Shown: positions 14,718 through 33,273 of the stretch, piece after piece
Layout of the letters: the number at the start of each line of letters is the position of its first letter
How positions within the stretch are numbered: the first letter of the stretch is position 1
Assembly (NCBI GenBank): GCA_020725465.1
Contig: DYEY01000048.1
Location: forward strand, 1 to 33,403
Direction of reading: 5' to 3'
From: Dethiobacter sp.
Lineage (GTDB): Bacteria > Bacillota > Dethiobacteria > Dethiobacterales > Dethiobacteraceae
DNA length: 33,403 nt
Made by a program: the position numbers and the translations under genes
The notes under the pieces: generated by a model
The model's database searches: none
The model's input: only the letters and a program-made list of their open reading frames with translations
What the model was told of the DNA's origin: nothing

Positions 14718-15506
14718 ATGAAAATAGTGTTTCATCCCAGGTTCCTGAAGAGCTATACCAGCGATCCGGCGGCGGAGGCGGGGAGGTTGGAGCCCTCACT
14801 GGCGCTGCTTAAGGATACTTTCCCGTTGGTTGAACCGGAAAGCGCCCGGGAAGAGGATATCCTGCTGGTACACACCCAGGGACACCTGGAAGGAGTGCGC
14901 CGTGATACGGTGGTTTTCCGTATGGCTCTGCTTGCCGCCGGCGCCACCATGGAGGCGGCCCGGCTGTCACTCTCCGGGGAGGCCGCCTTTGCCCTCTGCC
15001 GTCCACCCGGGCACCATGCCGGCAGGGATAACTGCTGGGGCTTCTGTTATTTTAACAACGTGGCGGTGGCGGTGGCCAGCCTGTTAAAAAACGGCGACAT
15101 CAGGAGCGCGGCAATTGTGGATTTTGACTTGCACTATGGCGACGGCACCGCCAATATTTTTGCAGGGAACAGAGAGGTTGCCTACTGCCATGTCAGGGGC
15201 AGCGGTGGTTTTGCCTTTGTGGAGAACCTGAAAAGATTCCTGGAAACCGCTGCCTTTGACATTATCGCCGTATCGGCCGGCTTTGACCGCCATGTCAGGG
15301 ACTGGGGAGGCCAGCTGTCAGACCGCGATTACGGCGCCATAGGCCGGGTCATCGGTGAGGCGGCGAAGGGCAGATGTGGGGGCAGGGTATTTGCCGCCCT
15401 GGAGGGGGGCTATAACGCCAGGTCAATGGCCACCGGCCTGGCAGCTTTTCTGGATGGGCTGGAAGCCGGGGGAGACCCTTGGCAGGAAGGCGGAAAAGAG
15501 GTATAA
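14718..15506 (+). CDS. histone deacetylase family protein (AcuC/HdaH-like amidohydrolase)
   Basis: 262 residues, shorter than the ~300-370 usual in bacterial members, with the core intact. Family members remove acetyl or similar acyl groups from lysine or polyamines using a zinc ion. Seen: RPPGHHAG (His99-His100 catalytic pair), DFDLHYGDGT (zinc ligands Asp137 and His139), SAGFDRH (third ligand Asp190) and LEGGYN with the catalytic-type tyrosine. ATG 14718 follows AGAGAGGTG. The 126 nt before it hold the phosphorylase terminator and no clear promoter. The next gene's promoter lies inside its last codons. Its position before acyl-CoA genes could mean removal of acyl marks from enzymes, but that is inference. 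Confidence 0.88.
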   Translation: MKIVFHPRFLKSYTSDPAAEAGRLEPSLALLKDTFPLVEPESAREEDILLVHTQGHLEGVRRDTVVFRMALLAAGATMEAARLSLSGEAAFALCRPPGHHAGRDNCWGFCYFNNVAVAVASLLKNGDIRSAAIVDFDLHYGDGTANIFAGNREVAYCHVRGSGGFAFVENLKRFLETAAFDIIAVSAGFDRHVRDWGGQLSDRDYGAIGRVIGEAAKGRCGGRVFAALEGGYNARSMATGLAAFLDGLEAGGDPWQEGGKEV

Positions 15507-15540: not shown

Positions 15541-16989
15541 ATGCTGAACACCGCCATATCAATTCAAGGCATTTTGTTCAATGAAGAAGAGAATAACGTC
15601 ACGCGCCTGAAAAAGGAACTGGAAGTTATTATCGAAACCATTTATGACGGTGTTATCTTAAGCGACGCCGAAGGGCGCATTTTCTGGGCCAACAGCGGCG
15701 TGGAAAGAGTCTCGGGTGGCATCATGATTGCCGATATCCTGGGTAAAACGGCGAAAGAGCTGGAAGAGGAAGGTATTATCGTTTCCCAGAGCAAGAAGAT
15801 ACTGGGCAAGAATCCCATGACCCTGAAGCAGAAGCTGCGGACCGGGGTGGAGCTTTTAATAACCAGCACCCGCGCCTACGACGATAACGGCAAGTTTATG
15901 TTTTTTGTGGCCAACCTCAGGGATATTACGGAACTAAACCGCCTGAAGAAAGAGATGGAAGAGACCAAGGACCTGAGCGACCGGTATTACCGGGAGCTGA
16001 CCGAGCTGCGCGACAGGGTGCTGCAACAGGGCCGTATTATTTTTAAAAGCGAGAAAATGCAGCAGGTGTGCGAGCGGGTCATGAAAATTGCCAGGACCGA
16101 CACCAACGTCTTGCTGACCGGGCCTTCCGGCGCCGGCAAAGAAGTTATCGCCAAGTTTATCCACCGGACAAGCAACCGGTGCAAAGAACCGTTTGTGCAG
16201 ATCAACTGCGGCGCCATCCCGGAAACGTTGCTGGAATCCGAGCTTTTCGGTTATGACAGGGGCGCCTTTACCGGGGCCAGCAAGCAGGGTAAAATGGGCC
16301 TGATGGAGATGGCCAACAACGGCACCATACTGCTGGACGAGATAGGGGATTTGCCGCTCAACCTGCAGGTAAAACTGCTGCGCGCCATCCAGGAGCAGGT
16401 GGTATACCGGGTGGGCTCCACCACCCCCATACAGCTGGACGTCAGGATTATAGCGGCCACCAACCGCAACCTGGAAGATATGGTGAAGAAAGGCCTGTTC
16501 CGCGAAGACCTCTATTACCGGCTGAACGTAATTCCCATCCATATACCGCCGCTGCGGGAGAGAAAAGAGGACATCCTGCCGCTGGCTTTCAGCTTTCTCG
16601 ACCGCTACAACAAAAAACACGGCACAGACAAATCTTTCTCGGTGAAGGTATGTAACCTCCTGGAGGCCTATGACTGGCCGGGCAATGTGAGGGAACTGGA
16701 AAACCTGGTGGAGAGAATGGTGGTTATTTCCGACAACAAGATCCTTACTCCGGACTGCCTCCCGCCCCATTTTCAGGCGGAAATACGGGAGAGCACCCTG
16801 ACCGGCGCACTCCCGGCTTCCCGGGAAAACTTATTGTTGCCGCTCCGGGAAGTAAGGAACCGGGCGGAACGGGAAGCTATCACCAGAGCGCTGGAAATTG
16901 GCGGTTCGACACGCAAGGCGGCAGAACTGCTGGAAGTTGACCATTCCACCGTGGTAAGGAAGGCCAGGCAACTTAATATTGTCATCTGA
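15541..16989 (+). CDS. PAS-domain sigma-54-dependent transcriptional activator
   Basis: 482 residues. A PAS sensor occupies ~25-130 (TIYDGVILSDAEGRIFWANS; DDNGKFMFFVANLRDITE), followed by a coiled linker ~135-175. The AAA+ domain has GPSGAGKE (Walker A, Lys200), GAFTGA (241-246, sigma-54 contact), LLDEIGD (Walker B, Asp266-Glu267) and LREDLYYRLNV-type sensor sequence. The C-terminal helix-turn-helix is ~448-480 (STRKAAELLEVDHSTVVRKARQL), of TyrR/Fis type. ATG 15541 follows GAGGT; the frame stays open further upstream but without a ribosome site and over the deacetylase gene. No receiver domain is present, so the PAS domain probably senses a small molecule or redox state. The palindrome and -24/-12 promoter right behind suggest it controls the acyl-CoA genes. 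Confidence 0.93.
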   Translation: MLNTAISIQGILFNEEENNVTRLKKELEVIIETIYDGVILSDAEGRIFWANSGVERVSGGIMIADILGKTAKELEEEGIIVSQSKKILGKNPMTLKQKLRTGVELLITSTRAYDDNGKFMFFVANLRDITELNRLKKEMEETKDLSDRYYRELTELRDRVLQQGRIIFKSEKMQQVCERVMKIARTDTNVLLTGPSGAGKEVIAKFIHRTSNRCKEPFVQINCGAIPETLLESELFGYDRGAFTGASKQGKMGLMEMANNGTILLDEIGDLPLNLQVKLLRAIQEQVVYRVGSTTPIQLDVRIIAATNRNLEDMVKKGLFREDLYYRLNVIPIHIPPLRERKEDILPLAFSFLDRYNKKHGTDKSFSVKVCNLLEAYDWPGNVRELENLVERMVVISDNKILTPDCLPPHFQAEIRESTLTGALPASRENLLLPLREVRNRAEREAITRALEIGGSTRKAAELLEVDHSTVVRKARQLNIVI

Positions 16990-16991
16990 CT

Positions 16992-17007
16992 GGTGCAAAC
17001 CTGCACC
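16992..17007. promoter_or_regulatory. palindromic upstream activator site, copy 1
   Basis: GGTGCA-AACC-TGCACC, perfect 6-bp arms, 2 nt after the activator's stop codon. Its centre is about 107 nt upstream of the GG of the -24 element, a usual distance for enhancer-binding protein sites. The TyrR-like helix-turn-helix of the neighbouring activator would favour such a dyad. An identical 19-base stretch occurs at 19113-19131. Confidence 0.65.
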
Positions 17008-17012
17008 GGTAG

Positions 17013-17050
17013 AATGCGCCTGCCCAAAAGAAAGGGAAGGCGCATTTTTT
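17013..17050 (+). terminator. intrinsic terminator of the activator gene
   Basis: AATGCGCC (17013-17020) pairs with GGCGCATT (17039-17046), with an inner CCC/GGG pairing, and ends in TTTTTT. It separates the activator transcript from the sigma-54 unit. Confidence 0.88.
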
Positions 17051-17104
17051 AATGGAAAAGCGAGACTGCTCTCTTTTCTGACATTTCTGACAATTGCCGA
17101 AAAC

Positions 17105-17121
17105 TTGGCATGTATCTTGCT
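17105..17121 (+). promoter_or_regulatory. sigma-54 (-24/-12) promoter
   Basis: TTGGCATGTATCTTGCT fits the consensus YTGGCAYGNNNNTTGCW at every defined position. GG (17107-17108) and GC (17119-17120) are separated by exactly 10 nt. The predicted start near 17132 gives a ~29-nt leader to the acyl-CoA dehydrogenase ATG. Confidence 0.9.
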
Positions 17122-17160
17122 AAGGATAAAAATCAAAATATCAGGAGGTGGTAGCACACC

Positions 17161-18294: not shown

Positions 18295-18303
18295 GTGAAA
18301 GAG

Positions 18304-19086
18304 ATGGAATTCAAATACCTGAAGCTGGATGTTTCGGATAAGATCGCTGTCCTCACCATCAACCGGCCGGAAGTATTAAACGCCCTGAACCCTTCGGTGC
18401 TAGAAGAGCTCATGGCGGCTTTCGCCGGCATGGCCAATGACCCGGAGGTAAAGGCGGTGGTTATAACCGGGGCCGGAGGCAAGGCGTTTGTGGCCGGCGC
18501 CGATATCGGTGCCATGGCCAAATTCGGGCCGCTGGAAGCCAGGCGCTACATTGTCCTGGGACATCAGACCTTTGATGCCATCGCCGCTTTCTCCAGGCCG
18601 GTTATAGCAGCGGTCAACGGTTTTGCCCTGGGCGGCGGGCTGGAGCTGTCACTGGCCTGCGATTTTATCTACGCGGCCGAAACAGCCCGCTTTGGCCTGC
18701 CGGAAATCACCCTGGGTATTATCCCGGGCTGGGGCGGCACCCAGCGGCTTACAGCTGCCATCGGCCCCGGCAAGGCCAAAGAGATGATCTATACCGGCAA
18801 AATTATCGATGCCGCCGAGGCCTCCGCCATCGGCCTGGTCAATTGCGTATTGCCTGCGGACGGTTTCCTGGAGGCGGTCCGGGAAAAGGTAAAGAAGATA
18901 GTAGCCATGAGCGTGGTTCCCCTGACCATGAGCAAGACCGCCGTCAACGCTTACCTGGAGGGAGGCGGGCAGGTGGGACGGGAAGTGGAGATCCAGTCGG
19001 TCTGCATCTGCTTCTCGTCGGAAGACCAGAAAGAAGGCATGGCCGCGTTCCTGGAAAAAAGAAAGCCATCGTTCCGGGATAAATAA
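18304..19086 (+). CDS. enoyl-CoA hydratase (crotonase)
   Basis: 260 residues. It adds water to 2-enoyl-CoA to give 3-hydroxyacyl-CoA. Both catalytic glutamates of true hydratases are present: Glu114 in GGGLELSLACDF and Glu134 in LPEITLGIIPGWGGTQRL; the oxyanion-hole segment is KAFVAGADIGAM. ATG 18304 is preceded by AGGTG and is 9 nt past the dehydrogenase stop; a GTG at 18295 is too close to the ribosome site. It forms a two-gene unit with the dehydrogenase. Behind its stop lie two palindromes, then a fresh leader before the transporter. Confidence 0.95.
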   Translation: MEFKYLKLDVSDKIAVLTINRPEVLNALNPSVLEELMAAFAGMANDPEVKAVVITGAGGKAFVAGADIGAMAKFGPLEARRYIVLGHQTFDAIAAFSRPVIAAVNGFALGGGLELSLACDFIYAAETARFGLPEITLGIIPGWGGTQRLTAAIGPGKAKEMIYTGKIIDAAEASAIGLVNCVLPADGFLEAVREKVKKIVAMSVVPLTMSKTAVNAYLEGGGQVGREVEIQSVCICFSSEDQKEGMAAFLEKRKPSFRDK

Positions 19087-19093
19087 CCTGACC

Positions 19094-19109
19094 GGTGCGG
19101 GTTCACACC
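19094..19109. promoter_or_regulatory. degenerate palindrome next to activator site copy 2
   Basis: GGTGCG-GGTT-CACACC keeps the GGTG and CACC ends and the 4-nt centre of the GGTGCA-N4-TGCACC site, 19 nt to the left of the perfect copy. It may be a weaker second half of a tandem site; by itself it is marginal. Confidence 0.35.
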
Positions 19110-19112
19110 GCC

Positions 19113-19128
19113 GGTGCAAACCTGCACC
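19113..19128. promoter_or_regulatory. palindromic activator-type site, copy 2
   Basis: CCGGTGCA-AACC-TGCACCGG, perfect 8-bp arms. It shares the 19 bases GGTGCAAACCTGCACCGGT with the copy at 16992. No -24/-12 element is found in the 138 nt to its right, so it may act elsewhere, or as an RNA hairpin (TTTAAT follows) partly ending the dehydrogenase-hydratase transcript. Confidence 0.55.
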
Positions 19129-19272
19129 GGTTTAATACGGGCGCAATAGTCAGAAAATAACCAAAATACAAAAAACAGGAGGTGGCCAGAAAGAAAATAT
19201 CGGGAAGAGATATAGGATACCTGTCAGAGCCGGAAAAGAAGGACATCAGGACAAAATGGGAGGAGAATGAAA

Positions 19273-20637
19273 ATGGCAATCAAAAGAGCTGAAGGAGCGG
19301 TACAACCCGGTATCAACTGGGGCCGCCGCTTCACCATCAGGATCCCGGGAATACACGTTTCAAACAGCTGGCCCGAGTCCATCCAGGGAGGCCTATTGAC
19401 TCTGGCCACCGCCGCCGCTGCCGCGCCTTTGTTCATGCGGGCGTTTGCCCTGCCGTTTGAGTACGCCTGGGCGCTGGCCGCCCTGCCGCTTTTCTGGTAC
19501 TACGTATCGGCCTGGCTGTTCGGCGAGCCCTTCGCCCCGGGCTGGATAACCCCGTCCATACCGCTGGTGCTGGTCTTCCTGGGCGGCTATGAGCCCGGCG
19601 TTCATGCCATCCAGGCCATGACCGCCCTGGCGCTCACGGTCTCCGCACTGTTTTTGGTATTCGCGGTAACCGGCCTGGGTGGCAAATTCTTCAGCTGGGT
19701 CCCGGCCGAGCTGCGTGCCGGCATTATTCTTGGCTCCGCCATTGCTGCCTTTAACGGCGAGTTCACCAGGCACGCCACCATGCCCAAAACCCTGACGGTG
19801 GTGTGGGCGGTGGTATTCCTGTTAATGTTCTCGGTCTGGGTGGCCAAAGGCAAAGAAACTAACAAGACCCTGCGCCTGGCAGCCAATATGGCTATGCTGA
19901 TCGGCTTCCTGGTGGCGGCGGTGGTGGGCCCGCTGGCCGGTGAAGTAAAGTTTGCTTTCAGCTCGCAGGTAATCCTTATCCCTCAGTTTGCCGCTGCTGT
20001 AAAGGCGGTTAACCCCTTCAGCGTGGGCTGGCCGTCCTGGAACATGTTTGTCAGCGCCTTCCCCCTGGCAGTCATGGTTTATGTCATCGTCTTCGGCGAC
20101 CTGGTGCTGGCTAACACGCTGCTGACCGAAGCCGACCGGATCCGTACCGACGAAAAGATCATCGTGGACCCCACCCGTACCCACTACACCCTGTTCTTCC
20201 GCAACATCGGCCAGATTCTTACCATCGGCCCGCTGATTCCCATGCACGGCCCCATCTGGACCGGCGTCACCGTCTTCCTGGTGGAGCAGTACAAGCAGGG
20301 ACGGCAGAGGATGGATTCAATCTATTCCGGCATCCTCAGCTGGTACTGGCCCGCGTTCATTCTGGTTTTCATCAGCCCGGTGGTGGATTTCATGCGGCCT
20401 ATCCTTCCGGTGGCTCTCTCCATCACCCTGATACTGACCGGTTTTGCCTGCGCCTACATCGCCATGCGCATGGTAAACACTCCCACCGGTCAGGGGTACG
20501 CTCTCTTTATCGCTCTCCTTATTGTGAAGTTCGGTCCCACCTGGGGACTTGGTGTGGGTATAGCGCTGTTCTTCCTGCTCCTGGTACAGCGTAAACCCAT
20601 GATCCCCATGCCTTACGACGTGGAGATGAAAGCCTGA
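19273..20637 (+). CDS. multi-pass membrane transporter, NCS2/SulP-like fold suspected (paralogue 1)
   Basis: 454 residues with about 11-13 hydrophobic segments. I do not recognise the exact family. The pattern FFSWVPAELRAGIILGSAIAAFNGEF resembles the P-x-x-x-x-x-G-I-x-x-G region of the xanthine/uracil, benzoate and sulphate permease superfamily, so a secondary transporter is likely. Conserved polar stretches include VFGDLVLANTLL, DPTRTHYTLFFRNIGQ and IPMHGPIWTGVTVF. ATG 19273 has AGGAG (19261-19265) 7 nt upstream; ATG 19267 is too close. Its paralogue at 26889 starts the same way (MALKR versus MAIKR). Flanking CoA ligases suggest a carboxylate substrate (inference). Upstream, 180 nt hold the two palindromes. 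Confidence 0.65.
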   Translation: MAIKRAEGAVQPGINWGRRFTIRIPGIHVSNSWPESIQGGLLTLATAAAAAPLFMRAFALPFEYAWALAALPLFWYYVSAWLFGEPFAPGWITPSIPLVLVFLGGYEPGVHAIQAMTALALTVSALFLVFAVTGLGGKFFSWVPAELRAGIILGSAIAAFNGEFTRHATMPKTLTVVWAVVFLLMFSVWVAKGKETNKTLRLAANMAMLIGFLVAAVVGPLAGEVKFAFSSQVILIPQFAAAVKAVNPFSVGWPSWNMFVSAFPLAVMVYVIVFGDLVLANTLLTEADRIRTDEKIIVDPTRTHYTLFFRNIGQILTIGPLIPMHGPIWTGVTVFLVEQYKQGRQRMDSIYSGILSWYWPAFILVFISPVVDFMRPILPVALSITLILTGFACAYIAMRMVNTPTGQGYALFIALLIVKFGPTWGLGVGIALFFLLLVQRKPMIPMPYDVEMKA

Positions 20638-26796: not shown

Positions 26797-26888
26797 ATGA
26801 ACGGAGGTGACAGACAGGGGAGCTGCGCTGGTTACGTTAGTACTGATTGTAGCTTAATCGGATTAAAATTAGGATTGGAGGAATAGTG

Positions 26889-28247
26889 TTGGCTCTGAAG
26901 AGAGTAGAAGGCGGAGTTCAGCCCGGTATTAACTGGTGGAGGTTTACAACCAGGATTCCAGGCATTCATGTAGGTATTACCTGGCCGGAAGTTATCCAGG
27001 GCGGGTTGCTTTCTGTGGCAACCGGCGGCGCAGTGGCACCGCTGATGATGAGGTTTTTTGAAATACCATTTGAAGTGGCCTGGACTGTGGTCACACTACA
27101 GCTGTTTTGGGTCTGGTCCAGCACGTTCCTGTTTGGCGAGCCATATGCTCCCGGCTGGATCACTCCGGCGCTGCCGCTGGTACTGGTATTTCTCTCCGGC
27201 TTCAAACCGGGTGCGGAAGCGGTGCAGGCCATGACCGCGCTGACGCTTACCGTATCAGCTATTTTCCTATTTTTTGGGGTCACCAGATTGGGAGGCCGGT
27301 TTTTCAGCTGGATACCCAATGAACTTAAAGCAGGTATTATCATGGGGTCTGCGGTGGCAGCATTCAACGGCGAGTTCAACCGCATCAAGACCATGCCGGT
27401 GACGCTTACCGTCGTATGGGCAATAGTATTTTTGCTCATGTTCTCGGTCTGGTACGGGAAAATGAAAGAAAAAAACAAGCTGTTAGCCAGGCTGGCTTCC
27501 ATGGCCATGCTGGTGGGATTCCTGGCTGCAGCTATCGTAGGCCCCCTGGCCGGCGAGATGAAATTTGCCATTAAAATGGGACTCTCACTGCCGCAGTTCG
27601 GTCCCTTCCTGCAGGCGGTTTCGCCATTCTACGTAGGGTGGCCTGCCTGGGATATGTACCTGAAGGCCTTACCCCTGGCTGTGATGATTTATATAGTGGT
27701 TTTTGGTGACATTATCGTGGCCGACACGTTACTGCGGGACGCCGACCGTGTCCGGCTTGATGAGAAAATCGTGGTTGATCCCATCCGTACCCACTTTGCC
27801 CTTTTCTTCCGCAATATTGGCCACCTGTTGACGGGAGGCGTATTCATTCCGCTGCACGGCCCCATGTGGACCGGTGTTACCGTTTTTATCGTGGAGCGGT
27901 ATAAAGAAAGCAGAAAGAATCTGGATTCCATCTTTACCGGGACCATTAACTGGTACTGGCTGGGGTTGATCCTGATGCTGCTGACCCCTGTGGTCAACTT
28001 CATGATGCCCATGCTGCCGGTAGCCCTTTCCATCACCCTGATCTTAACCGGTTTTGCCTGCGCCTATATTTCCATGCGCATGGTAGAGACTCCCACCGGC
28101 CGCGGCTACGCCCTGTTTATCGGGCTGGTAACCGCGACCTTCGGTCCCGCTTACGGGCTGGGAGTGGGGATTATCTTGTTCTTCCTGCTCCTGGTGCAAA
28201 GAAAGCCGCTCATCCCCATGCCCTACGATGTACCTATGAAAGAATAA
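26889..28247 (+). CDS. multi-pass membrane transporter, NCS2/SulP-like fold suspected (paralogue 2)
   Basis: 452 residues, clearly a paralogue of the protein at 19273: the two align end to end without obvious gaps and share most residues in WITP-PLVLVFL, QAMTAL-LTVSA, TLTVVWA-VFLLMFSVW and the C-terminal RKP-IPMPYDV. It has the same membrane-segment pattern. TTG 26889 has GGAGG (26877-26881) 7 nt upstream; GTG 26886 is too close. Codon use looks slightly less GC-rich than paralogue 1. The substrate is unknown; it stands directly before a third synthetase and a second PaaG-like gene, as paralogue 1 stands before the first set. The 92 nt upstream show no clear promoter. Confidence 0.65.
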   Translation: MALKRVEGGVQPGINWWRFTTRIPGIHVGITWPEVIQGGLLSVATGGAVAPLMMRFFEIPFEVAWTVVTLQLFWVWSSTFLFGEPYAPGWITPALPLVLVFLSGFKPGAEAVQAMTALTLTVSAIFLFFGVTRLGGRFFSWIPNELKAGIIMGSAVAAFNGEFNRIKTMPVTLTVVWAIVFLLMFSVWYGKMKEKNKLLARLASMAMLVGFLAAAIVGPLAGEMKFAIKMGLSLPQFGPFLQAVSPFYVGWPAWDMYLKALPLAVMIYIVVFGDIIVADTLLRDADRVRLDEKIVVDPIRTHFALFFRNIGHLLTGGVFIPLHGPMWTGVTVFIVERYKESRKNLDSIFTGTINWYWLGLILMLLTPVVNFMMPMLPVALSITLILTGFACAYISMRMVETPTGRGYALFIGLVTATFGPAYGLGVGIILFFLLLVQRKPLIPMPYDVPMKE

Positions 28248-30907: not shown

Positions 30908-30971
30908 TTTAAATACAGAAAAGTTTAAAAAGTTCAAATAATAAAGCCTGTACAACATGGAGGCAGCGGCA

Positions 30972-32069
30972 GTGCACAGATACCTGGAGAACCCTAACTT
31001 ATTCTGGCAGGAGGAAAACGCCGGTGGCCGGTGGCGCCCGGCCGGCTTCCTGTGCCCTTACCTTCCCGAGGAAATAATGGAGGCCGCGGGGCTCACCCCG
31101 CTGCGTATTCTCCCGCTGAAGAAACCCTCGGAAGCAGTTGACCGCCATCTGCCGCCCAATACCTGCTCTGTTGCCCGCTCCATGCTGAGCCAGGCACTGG
31201 ACGGCTCGCTGGCGGGGATGGCCGGCGTCTTTTTTGCCCACTCCTGTGACACTATGCAGTGTTTGTCCGATATCTGGCGCGTTAACCGGCCGGATGGCCT
31301 GACTTACAACCTGGTGGGACCGGTGGCGCTGCAGGCGGCGGGAGCAAAGGAATACCTGCTGGCCGAGCTGGCACTGTTCGTAAAATTCCTCGAAGAAAAA
31401 TTGCAGGTTGAGGTAACGGAAGATGACCTGTGGAGCGCTATCGGGCTACATAACAAGACCCGGCAGCTACTGGCAAAATTGGAGCAAAACAGGGAAAGTT
31501 ATACCGCAATGCAGTATTTTGCCCTGCTTGAGGCCTCTGTGCGACTGCCAAAAGAAATCTATAACACTTTGCTGGAAGATGAATTGAAACGCGAGAATAT
31601 ATATATACCGGGAACCGGGCCCCGGCTGCTGCTGGCCGGGGCGGTACTGACCGACCCTGCCATACCAGGTGTCATTGAAGAGGCCGGGGGCAGGGTGGTG
31701 GCGGATACGCTCTGCAGCGGTACGCGTTACTTTGACATGCCTGTCCCTGTTGACAGGACGGGCGGGCCGTTGCCGGCGCTGGCGACGCGATACCTGGAGA
31801 GACCTCCCTGCCCGGCCAGGCACCCCGAAAAAGGACTCATTGGCAGGCAGCTGTTGGCCCTGGCGGCAGACCGCAAGGTAGACGGCGTCATCTTCCTGCT
31901 TGATCCATTCTGCGACCCGCACGCCTTTGAAGTGGTGGCAACGGCCGCCGTCCTGAAGAATGCCGGCCTGCCAAGCCTGGAGGTGCAGGTAGACCATTCC
32001 GGTGTAACCGGCCAGCTGAAGACCAGGATCCAGGCTTTTGTGGAGCTGCTCCGGGGAGGTGAGCGCTGA
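30972..32069 (+). CDS. 2-hydroxyacyl-CoA dehydratase / benzoyl-CoA reductase family subunit (HgdB/BcrC-like)
   Basis: 365 residues. Family members carry an iron-sulphur cluster and use one ATP-energised electron to remove water from 2-hydroxyacyl-CoA or to reduce an aromatic ring. Cysteines at typical places: C65 (NTCSVARS), C92 and C97 (HSCDTMQC), C314 (DPFCDPHAFE). The C-terminal QVDHSGVTGQLKTRIQAFVELL is the family ending. GTG 30972 has GGAGG (30959-30963) 8 nt upstream; the in-frame ATG 30957 lacks a ribosome site. The next gene starts 1 nt past the stop. Size and order match bcrC-bcrB, but a dehydratase function cannot be excluded. Confidence 0.85.
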   Translation: MHRYLENPNLFWQEENAGGRWRPAGFLCPYLPEEIMEAAGLTPLRILPLKKPSEAVDRHLPPNTCSVARSMLSQALDGSLAGMAGVFFAHSCDTMQCLSDIWRVNRPDGLTYNLVGPVALQAAGAKEYLLAELALFVKFLEEKLQVEVTEDDLWSAIGLHNKTRQLLAKLEQNRESYTAMQYFALLEASVRLPKEIYNTLLEDELKRENIYIPGTGPRLLLAGAVLTDPAIPGVIEEAGGRVVADTLCSGTRYFDMPVPVDRTGGPLPALATRYLERPPCPARHPEKGLIGRQLLALAADRKVDGVIFLLDPFCDPHAFEVVATAAVLKNAGLPSLEVQVDHSGVTGQLKTRIQAFVELLRGGER

Positions 32070-32070
32070 A

Positions 32071-33273
32071 GTGACCGTCCGCTACCGCCGGCTGACTACG
32101 CTTAACCGCCTCCAGGGTATGATGACCCGTCATTACGCCGCCTCCCGTTACCTGGGCAAGTTACATCCTGTCGCCTGGCTCACCAGCGGGGCGCCGGTGG
32201 AAATAATCAGGGCCATGGGCATTATGCCGGTCTACCCGGAAAATTACGGCGCCATCTGCGGGGCCAGGCGCGTAGCCGCCGACCTTTGCCAGGAGGCAGA
32301 ACAAAGAGGATACAGCAGGGAGCTTTGTTCCTACGCCAAGTGCCACCTGGCCTCCCTGTACGTGCCGAAACGGGCGCCCATGGGTGGCCTGCCCCGGCCC
32401 TCGGTACTGGTGGCCTGCAACAATATCTGCGGCACGGTAACCAAGTGGTACCAGGCCCTGGCCAGGGAACTGGACGTCCCGCTTTTCCTGTGGGATACGC
32501 CCTTTTCCTCCGGCGGTCTCCGGTCCCATGCCATCGACTATGCCGTAACCCAGCTGGAAGATATGATCCGGTTTCTGGAGAAGCATACCGGACGGCGTCT
32601 CCGCCCGGAAAAGCTGAAAAAAGTAGTTGGCCTGTCGCAGCAGGCGTCTCGCCTCTGGCAGGAAATACGGGACATGGGCCGGCACCGTCCTTCCCCGGTC
32701 AACGCTTCGGACCTCTTTATAGCCATGGCGCCTATCGTTACCCTGCGCGGTACCAGGGAAGCGGTGGACTTTTACCGCGACCTGAAGGAAGAGCTGGCTG
32801 AGCGGGTAAAAAGGGGAGAAGGAGCGTTACCGGAGGAAAAATACCGGTTGGTCTGGGACAACATTGCCATCTGGCACAAGCTGCTGCAGTTTTACGGAAT
32901 CTTCATAAACCTCCGGGCCTGTTTTGTGGCAGATACCTACACCGGGGGCTGGGGGCATGACCTGGCAGGTGAAGATATCCTGGCCAGTCTTGCCCGGACC
33001 TATACCGGCGTATTCTTAAACAGGGGCCTGGAATACCGGGCTGAGCAAATGGTGGAGCTGGTACAGGATTTCGGCGCCCATGGTTTTGTGATGCACGCCA
33101 ACCGTTCCTGCCGTCCGTACACCCTGCTCCAGTATGACATCAGGCGCATAGTTACCCTCAAAACCGGCGTCCCCGGGTTGATTGTGGAAGCTGACATGTC
33201 GGACCCACGGCTATTTGCCGAAGAAGCGGTCAAAACCCGGATTCAGGCCTTCATGGAAACGCTGGAGGCTTGA
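32071..33273 (+). CDS. 2-hydroxyacyl-CoA dehydratase / benzoyl-CoA reductase family subunit (HgdA/BcrB-like)
   Basis: 400 residues, partner of the preceding subunit. Family features: WLTSGAPVEIIRAMGIMPVYPEN with C63 (AICGARR), ACNNICGTVTKWYQALARELDVPLFLWD with C116 and C120, HANRSCRPYTLLQYDI with C347, and the ending VEADMSDPRLFAEEAVKTRIQAF. The A. fermentans alpha subunit has a recognisably similar CNNIC-TKWY stretch. GTG 32071 is preceded by GGGGAGG 11 nt away and lies 1 nt after the first subunit's stop, so the pair is co-translated. The required ATPase activator is not in view: 130 nt beyond the stop show no gene. The substrate is unassigned. Confidence 0.85.
   Translation: MTVRYRRLTTLNRLQGMMTRHYAASRYLGKLHPVAWLTSGAPVEIIRAMGIMPVYPENYGAICGARRVAADLCQEAEQRGYSRELCSYAKCHLASLYVPKRAPMGGLPRPSVLVACNNICGTVTKWYQALARELDVPLFLWDTPFSSGGLRSHAIDYAVTQLEDMIRFLEKHTGRRLRPEKLKKVVGLSQQASRLWQEIRDMGRHRPSPVNASDLFIAMAPIVTLRGTREAVDFYRDLKEELAERVKRGEGALPEEKYRLVWDNIAIWHKLLQFYGIFINLRACFVADTYTGGWGHDLAGEDILASLARTYTGVFLNRGLEYRAEQMVELVQDFGAHGFVMHANRSCRPYTLLQYDIRRIVTLKTGVPGLIVEADMSDPRLFAEEAVKTRIQAFMETLEA

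Follow-up and report, generated by a model that had tools for sequence, protein, structure and literature searches.

How the genes for anaerobic acid oxidation are switched on in Dethiobacter sp. is the question raised by the stretch of DNA analyzed here (33,403 nucleotides of contig DYEY01000048.1; hereinafter, the window). A sequence-only reading of this DNA proposed that a sigma-54 activator controls the promoter of an acyl-CoA dehydrogenase gene through a perfect palindrome located right behind the activator's own gene. The activator with its GAFTGA loop, the dyad, a terminator and the promoter ahead of the acyl-CoA dehydrogenase gene are all present where that reading had placed them, and the comparisons described below make it highly probable that the activator binds at 16992-17007 and turns on the promoter at 17105-17121. 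The features on which the argument draws are the following, where L002/G009 (apparently one and the same contig) is the orthologous locus of the MAG Bacillota bacterium HKB214 DDT21 and L005 that of genome G004.

15541-16989, forward strand: gene for a PAS-AAA+-HTH sigma-54 activator (enhancer-binding protein), 482 aa; Pfam domains, GAFTGA
16939-16962, forward strand: segment encoding the recognition helix DHSTVVRK, in which His as residue 2 predicts a G as half-site base 2
16992-17007, no strand: predicted operator 1, GGTGCA-AACC-TGCACC, center at about -132; perfect 6+6 dyad, arms kept in G009
17013-17050, forward strand: predicted intrinsic terminator of the activator gene; hairpin with T run
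17075-17092, forward strand: 9-bp direct repeat, two copies of TTTCTGACA; conserved in three orthologous promoters
17105-17121, forward strand: -24/-12 sigma-54 promoter TTGGCATGTATCTTGCT; pattern match, also in L004/L002 and L005
17161-18294, forward strand: acyl-CoA dehydrogenase gene, predicted first target; domain search
18295-19086, forward strand: enoyl-CoA hydratase gene; domain search
19094-19109, no strand: predicted operator 2a, degenerate dyad GGTGCG-GGTT-CACACC; pair conserved in L002
19113-19128, no strand: predicted operator 2b, exact second copy GGTGCA-AACC-TGCACC; genome pattern search
19267-20637, forward strand: membrane-protein gene without Pfam or NCBIfam match; its 64% identical homologue is the first gene after the G004 sigma-54 promoter

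The activator and the region behind its gene

The activator combines an N-terminal PAS_9 domain (28.8 bits, cut-off 27), a Sigma54_activat domain (239.8 bits, cut-off 20.2), an AAA_lid_14 domain and a C-terminal HTH_50 domain (35.9 bits, cut-off 27), all above the Pfam cut-offs, with the GAFTGA loop encoded at 16261-16278, an architecture that places it among the bacterial enhancer-binding proteins (EBPs). The genome contains one match to the sigma-54 DNA-binding domain (E 7e-61), and thus, sigma-54 and a -24/-12 promoter at the target occur together, as membership in this class implies. The best NCBIfam model, PrdR (NF041552), scores 426.6 bits over residues 14-476, far under the curated equivalog cut-off of 795, and hence the activator is not assigned to PrdR. 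A PDB sequence search with the HTH domain retrieved NtrX (5m7n, E 0.002) and two weak matches, a designed repeat protein and SETMAR. The preceding gene (14718-15506), which ends 34 nt before that of the activator, encodes a histone-deacetylase/AcuC-like protein (Hist_deacetyl); the gene in this position looks different in L002. Enzymes of this type can control acyl-CoA ligases via deacetylation, and an acyl-CoA ligase (20701) and two of its relatives (22237, 28348) are encoded downstream of the activator.

The dyad starts 3 nt past the activator stop codon and is followed by the terminator; folding of 16985-17056 as RNA yields two separate hairpins (-36.3 kcal/mol, z -6.3), and in L002, a second hairpin with a T run likewise lies 3' of the dyad. 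The promoter is the sole match without mismatches to YTGGCAYGNNNNTTGCW in the window, where the pattern at two mismatches occurs at the chance level (7 vs 6.0); the form TTGGCAYNNNNNTTGCW is found 5 times in the genome, with 2 for the control. Taking C17120 as -12, the transcription start is predicted at 17132, by position arithmetic that agrees with the start near 17132 proposed in the sequence-only reading and from which the dyad position given above follows. A ribosome site at 17143-17151 precedes the acyl-CoA dehydrogenase gene.

In the 2,913,134 bases of the genome, the exact dyad pattern is found at two places, both in this cluster, compared to one for the reversed control pattern. Dyads with three mismatches are at the chance level in the window (21 vs 21.1), and those with two mismatches are common genome-wide (139 places, control 42), so that the weight rests on the exact form and its context. 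A genome-wide search, which the sequence-only reading had called for, did not extend the regulon: with the pattern GGTGY-N6-RCACC (26 places, control 3), no further target was found among the 15 loci examined. Three of these are the window sites, and the remaining 12 are all without a sigma-54 site in the 300 nt around them. Each of the 12 falls within an open frame of at least 142 aa, a measure that says little on these loci because the window sites, too, lie in chance open frames, of 299 and 160 aa.

The orthologous loci present a mixed picture. In L002/G009, where the activator is 81-83% identical to that in the window and the promoter is TTGGCATATGTTTTGCA, site 1 reads GGTGCA-GTAA-TGCACC, with all 12 arm positions and none of the 4 spacer positions kept and the flanks partly diverged. 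In G004, the activator is 66% identical and has the same helix, but the good promoter TTGGCACTGCTCTTGCA precedes not an acyl-CoA dehydrogenase gene but one for a membrane protein, 77% and 64% identical to the products of window genes 26886 and 19267, respectively. At the site 1 position of G004, there is only the half-site TGCACC, and the GGTG-N8-CACC of this locus is part of the terminator stem, which counts against a simple picture. The persistence of the dyad in orthologous loci, on which the sequence-only reading had staked its proposal, is therefore borne out in the closer relative and fails in the more distant one, with its different target gene. A 50% identical activator of the same family, with the helix DHSTIVRK, is followed in L008 (2547-2610) by repeated GGTGCAAC/GGTGCACC/GGTGCAAT half-sites that precede what looks like a transporter binding-protein gene.

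The direct repeat is located 12 bp upstream of the -24 element. In L002, both copies carry the same T-to-A change (TTTCAGA), and in L005, the repeat is TTTCTGAAATTTTCAGA. Among 110 promoters with 60 nt of upstream sequence, at least two TTTCWGA motifs (on either strand) are present only in the window, L002, L005 and L048. Perhaps, the repeat is the site of a second regulator.

Recognition helices and operator bases in related activators

The analysis of related activators covered 188 proteins, namely, a first set from 101 of 104 listed activator places and a second set of 87 further activators; in 113 of the 188 cases, the stop codon of the activator gene is closely followed by a sigma-54 site. 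In the first set, a -24/-12 site with at most two mismatches lies within 420 nt past the stop in 64 of 101 cases, and for the 90 genes followed by 400 nt or more of sequence, there are 61 promoters on the strand of the gene compared to 2 on the opposite strand and 0.9 expected from Markov sequences. In the second set, 49 activators have a downstream promoter, 47 of these with a readable helix. When all gapped 4-base palindromes in 61 stop-to-promoter regions were counted against shuffles, the five leading ones, A/T runs aside, turned out to share a single 16-bp register, NNTGCA-N4-TGCANN: ATGC-N6-GCAT (11 regions, shuffle 0.2), TGCA-N4-TGCA (10, shuffle 0.5), GATG-N8-CATC (10, shuffle 0.2), AATG-N8-CATT (9, shuffle 0.6) and GGTG-N8-CACC (8, shuffle 0.025). 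Also enriched, outside this register, are TGCA-N8-TGCA, GCAT-N6-ATGC and AATG-N0-CATT, with 8 regions each. Given that whichever motif is most frequent in a shuffle turns up in 6-13 regions, raw counts of 8-11 mean little, and it is the per-motif excess that counts. Altogether, both a promoter and a readable helix are available for 103 regions, of which 44 contain a strict 16-bp dyad (41 unambiguous, 3 tied) and 59 do not. The operator-to-promoter distance in the window, 117, compares with a family median of 117.5 by the same measure (56 activators, relaxed sites).

In the 41 unambiguous dyads, base 2 of the half-site follows residue 2 of the recognition helix, with His paired with G in 10 of 10 cases, Gln with A in 23 of 23, Ala with T in 6 of 7, and Arg with G in the single case. 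All these pairings are textbook residue-base contacts. Across 40 HTH columns, helix position 2 shares the most information with base 2 (1.27 bits, shuffle 0.12, z 19.6), followed by a column with z 8.3. The apparent code was written down from the first set before the second one was taken. In the first set, the eight regions with GGTG-N8-CACC are without exception those of DHST helices, and of the 31 xQS regions, 15 contain a dyad, nearly always GA or AA, and 16 do not. In the second set, among dyads of the form XYTG-N8-CAyx, [DN]HS helices go with GG in 3 of 3 cases, QS helices with GA or AA in 10 of 15, and AS helices with GT in 6 of 9, and none of the S/T-HS (9) or HT (8) helices has a dyad. 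The limitation of residue 1 to Asp or Asn was added after seeing the data, and without it, the His-S helices of the second set go with GG in only 3 of 12 cases.

For both sets combined, a matching dyad accompanies 41 of the 62 helices of the form [DN]-x-S-[TNS], where x is H, Q or A, compared to a mean of 21.0 and a maximum of 33 in 20,000 label shuffles. By class, the match holds for 11 of 12 His-type, 24 of 41 Gln-type and 6 of 9 Ala-type activators, and a GG dyad occurs in none of the 41 Gln-type regions. Read backwards, the regions of this combined set contain one dyad in total. There are gaps and exceptions: 17 of the 41 Gln-type regions lack a strict dyad, and dyads of another class appear in four regions, beside the proper one in L017, L063 and L163 and instead of it in the Ala-type L173, which has an AA dyad only. 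In the case of the twelfth His-type activator, L101, a perfect GGTGCA-CCAT-TGCACC precedes the gene, and two His-type dyads (L005, L063) are located within terminator stems. The [DN]HS activators without a downstream sigma-54 site mostly lack a dyad there (0 of 6: L007, L043, L119, L161, L166, L176), the exception being L187, which has two. Four more activators are L238 (no promoter), L240 (SHTT helix), L243 (helix not parsed) and L241 (NQST helix and a promoter), the sole testable Gln-type among the four, in which the dyad is absent.

The relationship between residue 2 and base 2 seems to hold outside the TG core as well, judging from SHTT helices, of which 7 of 8 have TGGAA-N8-TTCCA in their region, with G as base 2, and SQPT helices, of which 3 of 6 have ATACA-N4-TGTAT, with A as base 2. 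A further position appears to matter in the His-type sites, where base 5 is A in 14 of the 16 half-sites that go with Lys at helix position 7 and in none of the 18 that go with Arg (11 C, 5 T and 2 G), with the reservation for both counts that half-sites from one dyad are not independent of each other. The window fits this scheme: its helix DHSTVVRK predicts GGTGCA half-sites, which are found at 16992 and 19113, and with a dyad between stop and promoter, and base 2 in agreement with residue 2, it belongs to the 16-bp XYTG-N8-CAyx class. We believe it likely, from these comparisons of proteins and sites, that this group of PAS-containing EBPs obeys a code whereby residue 2 reads base 2, with His or Arg specifying G, Gln specifying A and Ala specifying T, while base 5 is set by residue 7, as A with Lys and mostly as C with Arg (no A among 18 half-sites), so that operators and, hence, regulons would be predictable from protein sequence alone in hundreds of genomes, with GGTGCA-N4-TGCACC in the window being one correct prediction. 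Resting as it does on correlation, the one-residue recognition code is probable, not proven.

The correlation could, in principle, mostly reflect shared ancestry, in which case it would serve to find operators by homology and would be no proof that residue 2 reads base 2. In favor of this possibility, the tree of the part of the proteins before the HTH (AAA+) is weakly resolved, with only 1-2 supported independent pairs, and 6 of the 9 Ala-type activators come from one family (f22). The small number of supported pairs also ruled out a tree-based sign test of independence, which was replaced by the use of one representative per taxonomic family and residue class. Among the 33 such representatives, the match persists (22.1 vs 11.9 in label shuffles; p < 0.001 for every one of 100 draws). 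Furthermore, His-type and Gln-type activators coexist in six families (f1, f11, f34, f42, f45, f54), with each class having its own operator in at least one member, and the other HTH columns correlate much less than helix position 2. In the light of these observations, we consider descent a rather unlikely main source of the correlation.

A model of the switch, and a second pair of sites

The observed anatomy of the locus, its conservation and the helix/operator correlation suggest a model in which we infer the binding, the contacts, the hexamer activation, the start site, the signal and the use of the second pair. A dimer of the activator would bind the 16-bp dyad behind its own gene, with each recognition helix positioned on one 5'-GGTGCA-3' half-site, where base 2, a G, would be contacted by His at helix position 2 and the TGCA core by the S-T-x-x-R-K frame. 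Upon taking up a signal through the PAS domain, which the sequence-only reading proposed to be a fatty or aromatic acid, its CoA ester or a redox signal, the activator would form a hexamer and loop to the sigma-54 polymerase at 17105-17121. Promoter opening at the expense of ATP would then lead to expression of the acyl-CoA dehydrogenase and enoyl-CoA hydratase genes and, probably, of further genes in the cluster. The message of the activator itself would end at the terminator between operator and promoter, and the tandem pair at 19094-19128 would be a second binding place of the same activator.

The key element of this model is the identity of the dyad. Because base 2 matches helix residue 2 across the relatives, and the helix encoded in the window predicts GGTG, as found, the dyad is very probably the operator of the activator, and this proposal of the sequence-only reading is well supported by comparison of sites and proteins, with the 12 arm positions retained in G009 next to a spacer changed at all four. 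The position of the dyad, 3 nt past the stop codon and next to a terminator, and its very stable predicted RNA fold could instead point to a hairpin at the 3' end of the activator message, that is, a stabilizer or one part of a two-hairpin terminator, rather than to a protein-binding site; moreover, dyads follow stop codons at both places in the window, and small hairpins are predicted at both in L002, too. Yet a separate terminator hairpin follows the dyad, and the single large hairpin predicted for the second place in the window corresponds to two small ones in L002. It is the letters, not just the pairing, that are kept across relatives, with a recurrent TG/CA core and base 2 following one helix residue, and the perfect copy of L101 precedes the activator gene, all of which renders an RNA role very improbable. 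TetR- and GntR-type regulators commonly bind short palindromes near beta-oxidation genes, and another regulator of that kind, for example, one responding to fatty acids, could occupy the dyad at the same promoter. The location at about -132 is, however, typical of an enhancer site for a sigma-54 promoter, and in a set spanning 25 taxonomic families, base 2 of the dyad tracks the neighboring activator's own helix; such recurrence of the letters, with one base following one protein residue, leaves a site for a different regulator with hardly any probability.

The sequence-only reading did not include the second exact dyad at 19113-19128 or its degenerate partner at 19094-19109. The two lie 19 bp apart behind the enoyl-CoA hydratase stop codon, in keeping with a spacing of 19-21 bp that is the commonest between successive relaxed sites in the family (20 of 60). 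In L002, the second place is kept as a pair, GGTGCG-TTAT-TGCACC and GGTGTA-TTGG-GACACC, again 19 bp apart. In this part of L002 (8767-8870), most of the enoyl-CoA hydratase gene has been deleted, so that a C-terminal remnant runs into the tandem pair, and the membrane-protein (19267) and ligase (20701) genes of the window are missing behind it. No sigma-54 promoter was found between the pair and the next gene, either at up to two mismatches or on reading 19128-19270; a two-mismatch match at 19730 was rejected as a second promoter, being inside the next gene. The pair could assist the 17105-17121 promoter by looping from 2 kb downstream or could hold the activator in reserve; alternatively, it could be a remnant from a time when the membrane-protein gene, which is the first target in G004, had a promoter of its own that was later lost.

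The acid-oxidation cluster contains genes for two related membrane proteins of about 455 aa (19267-20637 and 26886-28247), both without a Pfam or NCBIfam match; perhaps, these represent a so far undescribed family of acid transporters. The cluster ends (30957-33273) with two adjacent genes for HGD-D subunits (2-hydroxyacyl-CoA dehydratase/benzoyl-CoA reductase-like), hinting at an unusual acid substrate.

Relation to known systems

For Dethiobacter sp., these findings provide a concrete predicted switch that would control the anaerobic oxidation of acids. Should individual operator bases indeed be determined by individual helix residues, regulons could be read from sequence, and the rule could be tested by swapping a single residue; if true, the code could also guide the construction of activator/promoter pairs free of mutual interference. 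Bacteria can carry at least 35 such activators (PMC6615313, PMC4641369). Our search of the open-access literature found no report of a residue-level EBP code or of a GGTGCA-N4-TGCACC operator, a weak form of evidence of absence.

The comparisons that follow pertain to the portions of the cited papers considered here. Nie et al. 2019 (PMC6615313) reported upstream activating sequence (UAS) motifs for 263 EBPs in 39 groups from Clostridiales, with this same layout, that is, PAS-type one-component EBPs encoded beside their targets, with the UAS mostly 100-250 bp upstream of a TTGGCATNNNNNTTGCT promoter, and several of these groups control bcd/crt/etf genes. Unlike the window site, the motifs of fifteen groups are TGT/ACA repeats with 10-12 bp spacers, and fifteen more are called 'distinct' without being spelled out; the text of that paper, as opposed to the motifs in its Fig. 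3, contains neither a residue-level rule nor GGTGCA-N4-TGCACC. Motif similarity follows HTH similarity in that work, but is not always in step with overall HTH similarity in a Desulfovibrio study (PMC4641369). The TGCA core is shared with TTGCAWWWTGCAA, the UAS of LuxO of Vibrio (PMC10162802), in which the essential residues V420, S423, R427 and K428 (PMC11407668) have the same spacing as V-x-x-S-x-x-x-R-K of the window helix; LuxO differs in its 3-bp rather than 4-bp spacer, in the outer bases, and in being a response regulator rather than a PAS protein. The NtrC site of Salmonella, TGCACC(A/T)4TGGTGCA (PMC4987338), has the same half-site letters and also serves sigma-54 activation from upstream, but the order of its half-sites, TGCACC...GGTGCA, is opposite to the GGTGCA...TGCACC of the window, and we rejected the dyad as an NtrC-type operator. 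Acyl-CoA dehydrogenase genes are enriched among sigma-54 targets in Clostridia and Bacilli (PMC12316311), and sigma-54 control of such genes in Clostridia is already in print. The circuit is of a known kind; the new part, beyond what the sequence-only reading had found, is probably the one-residue code.
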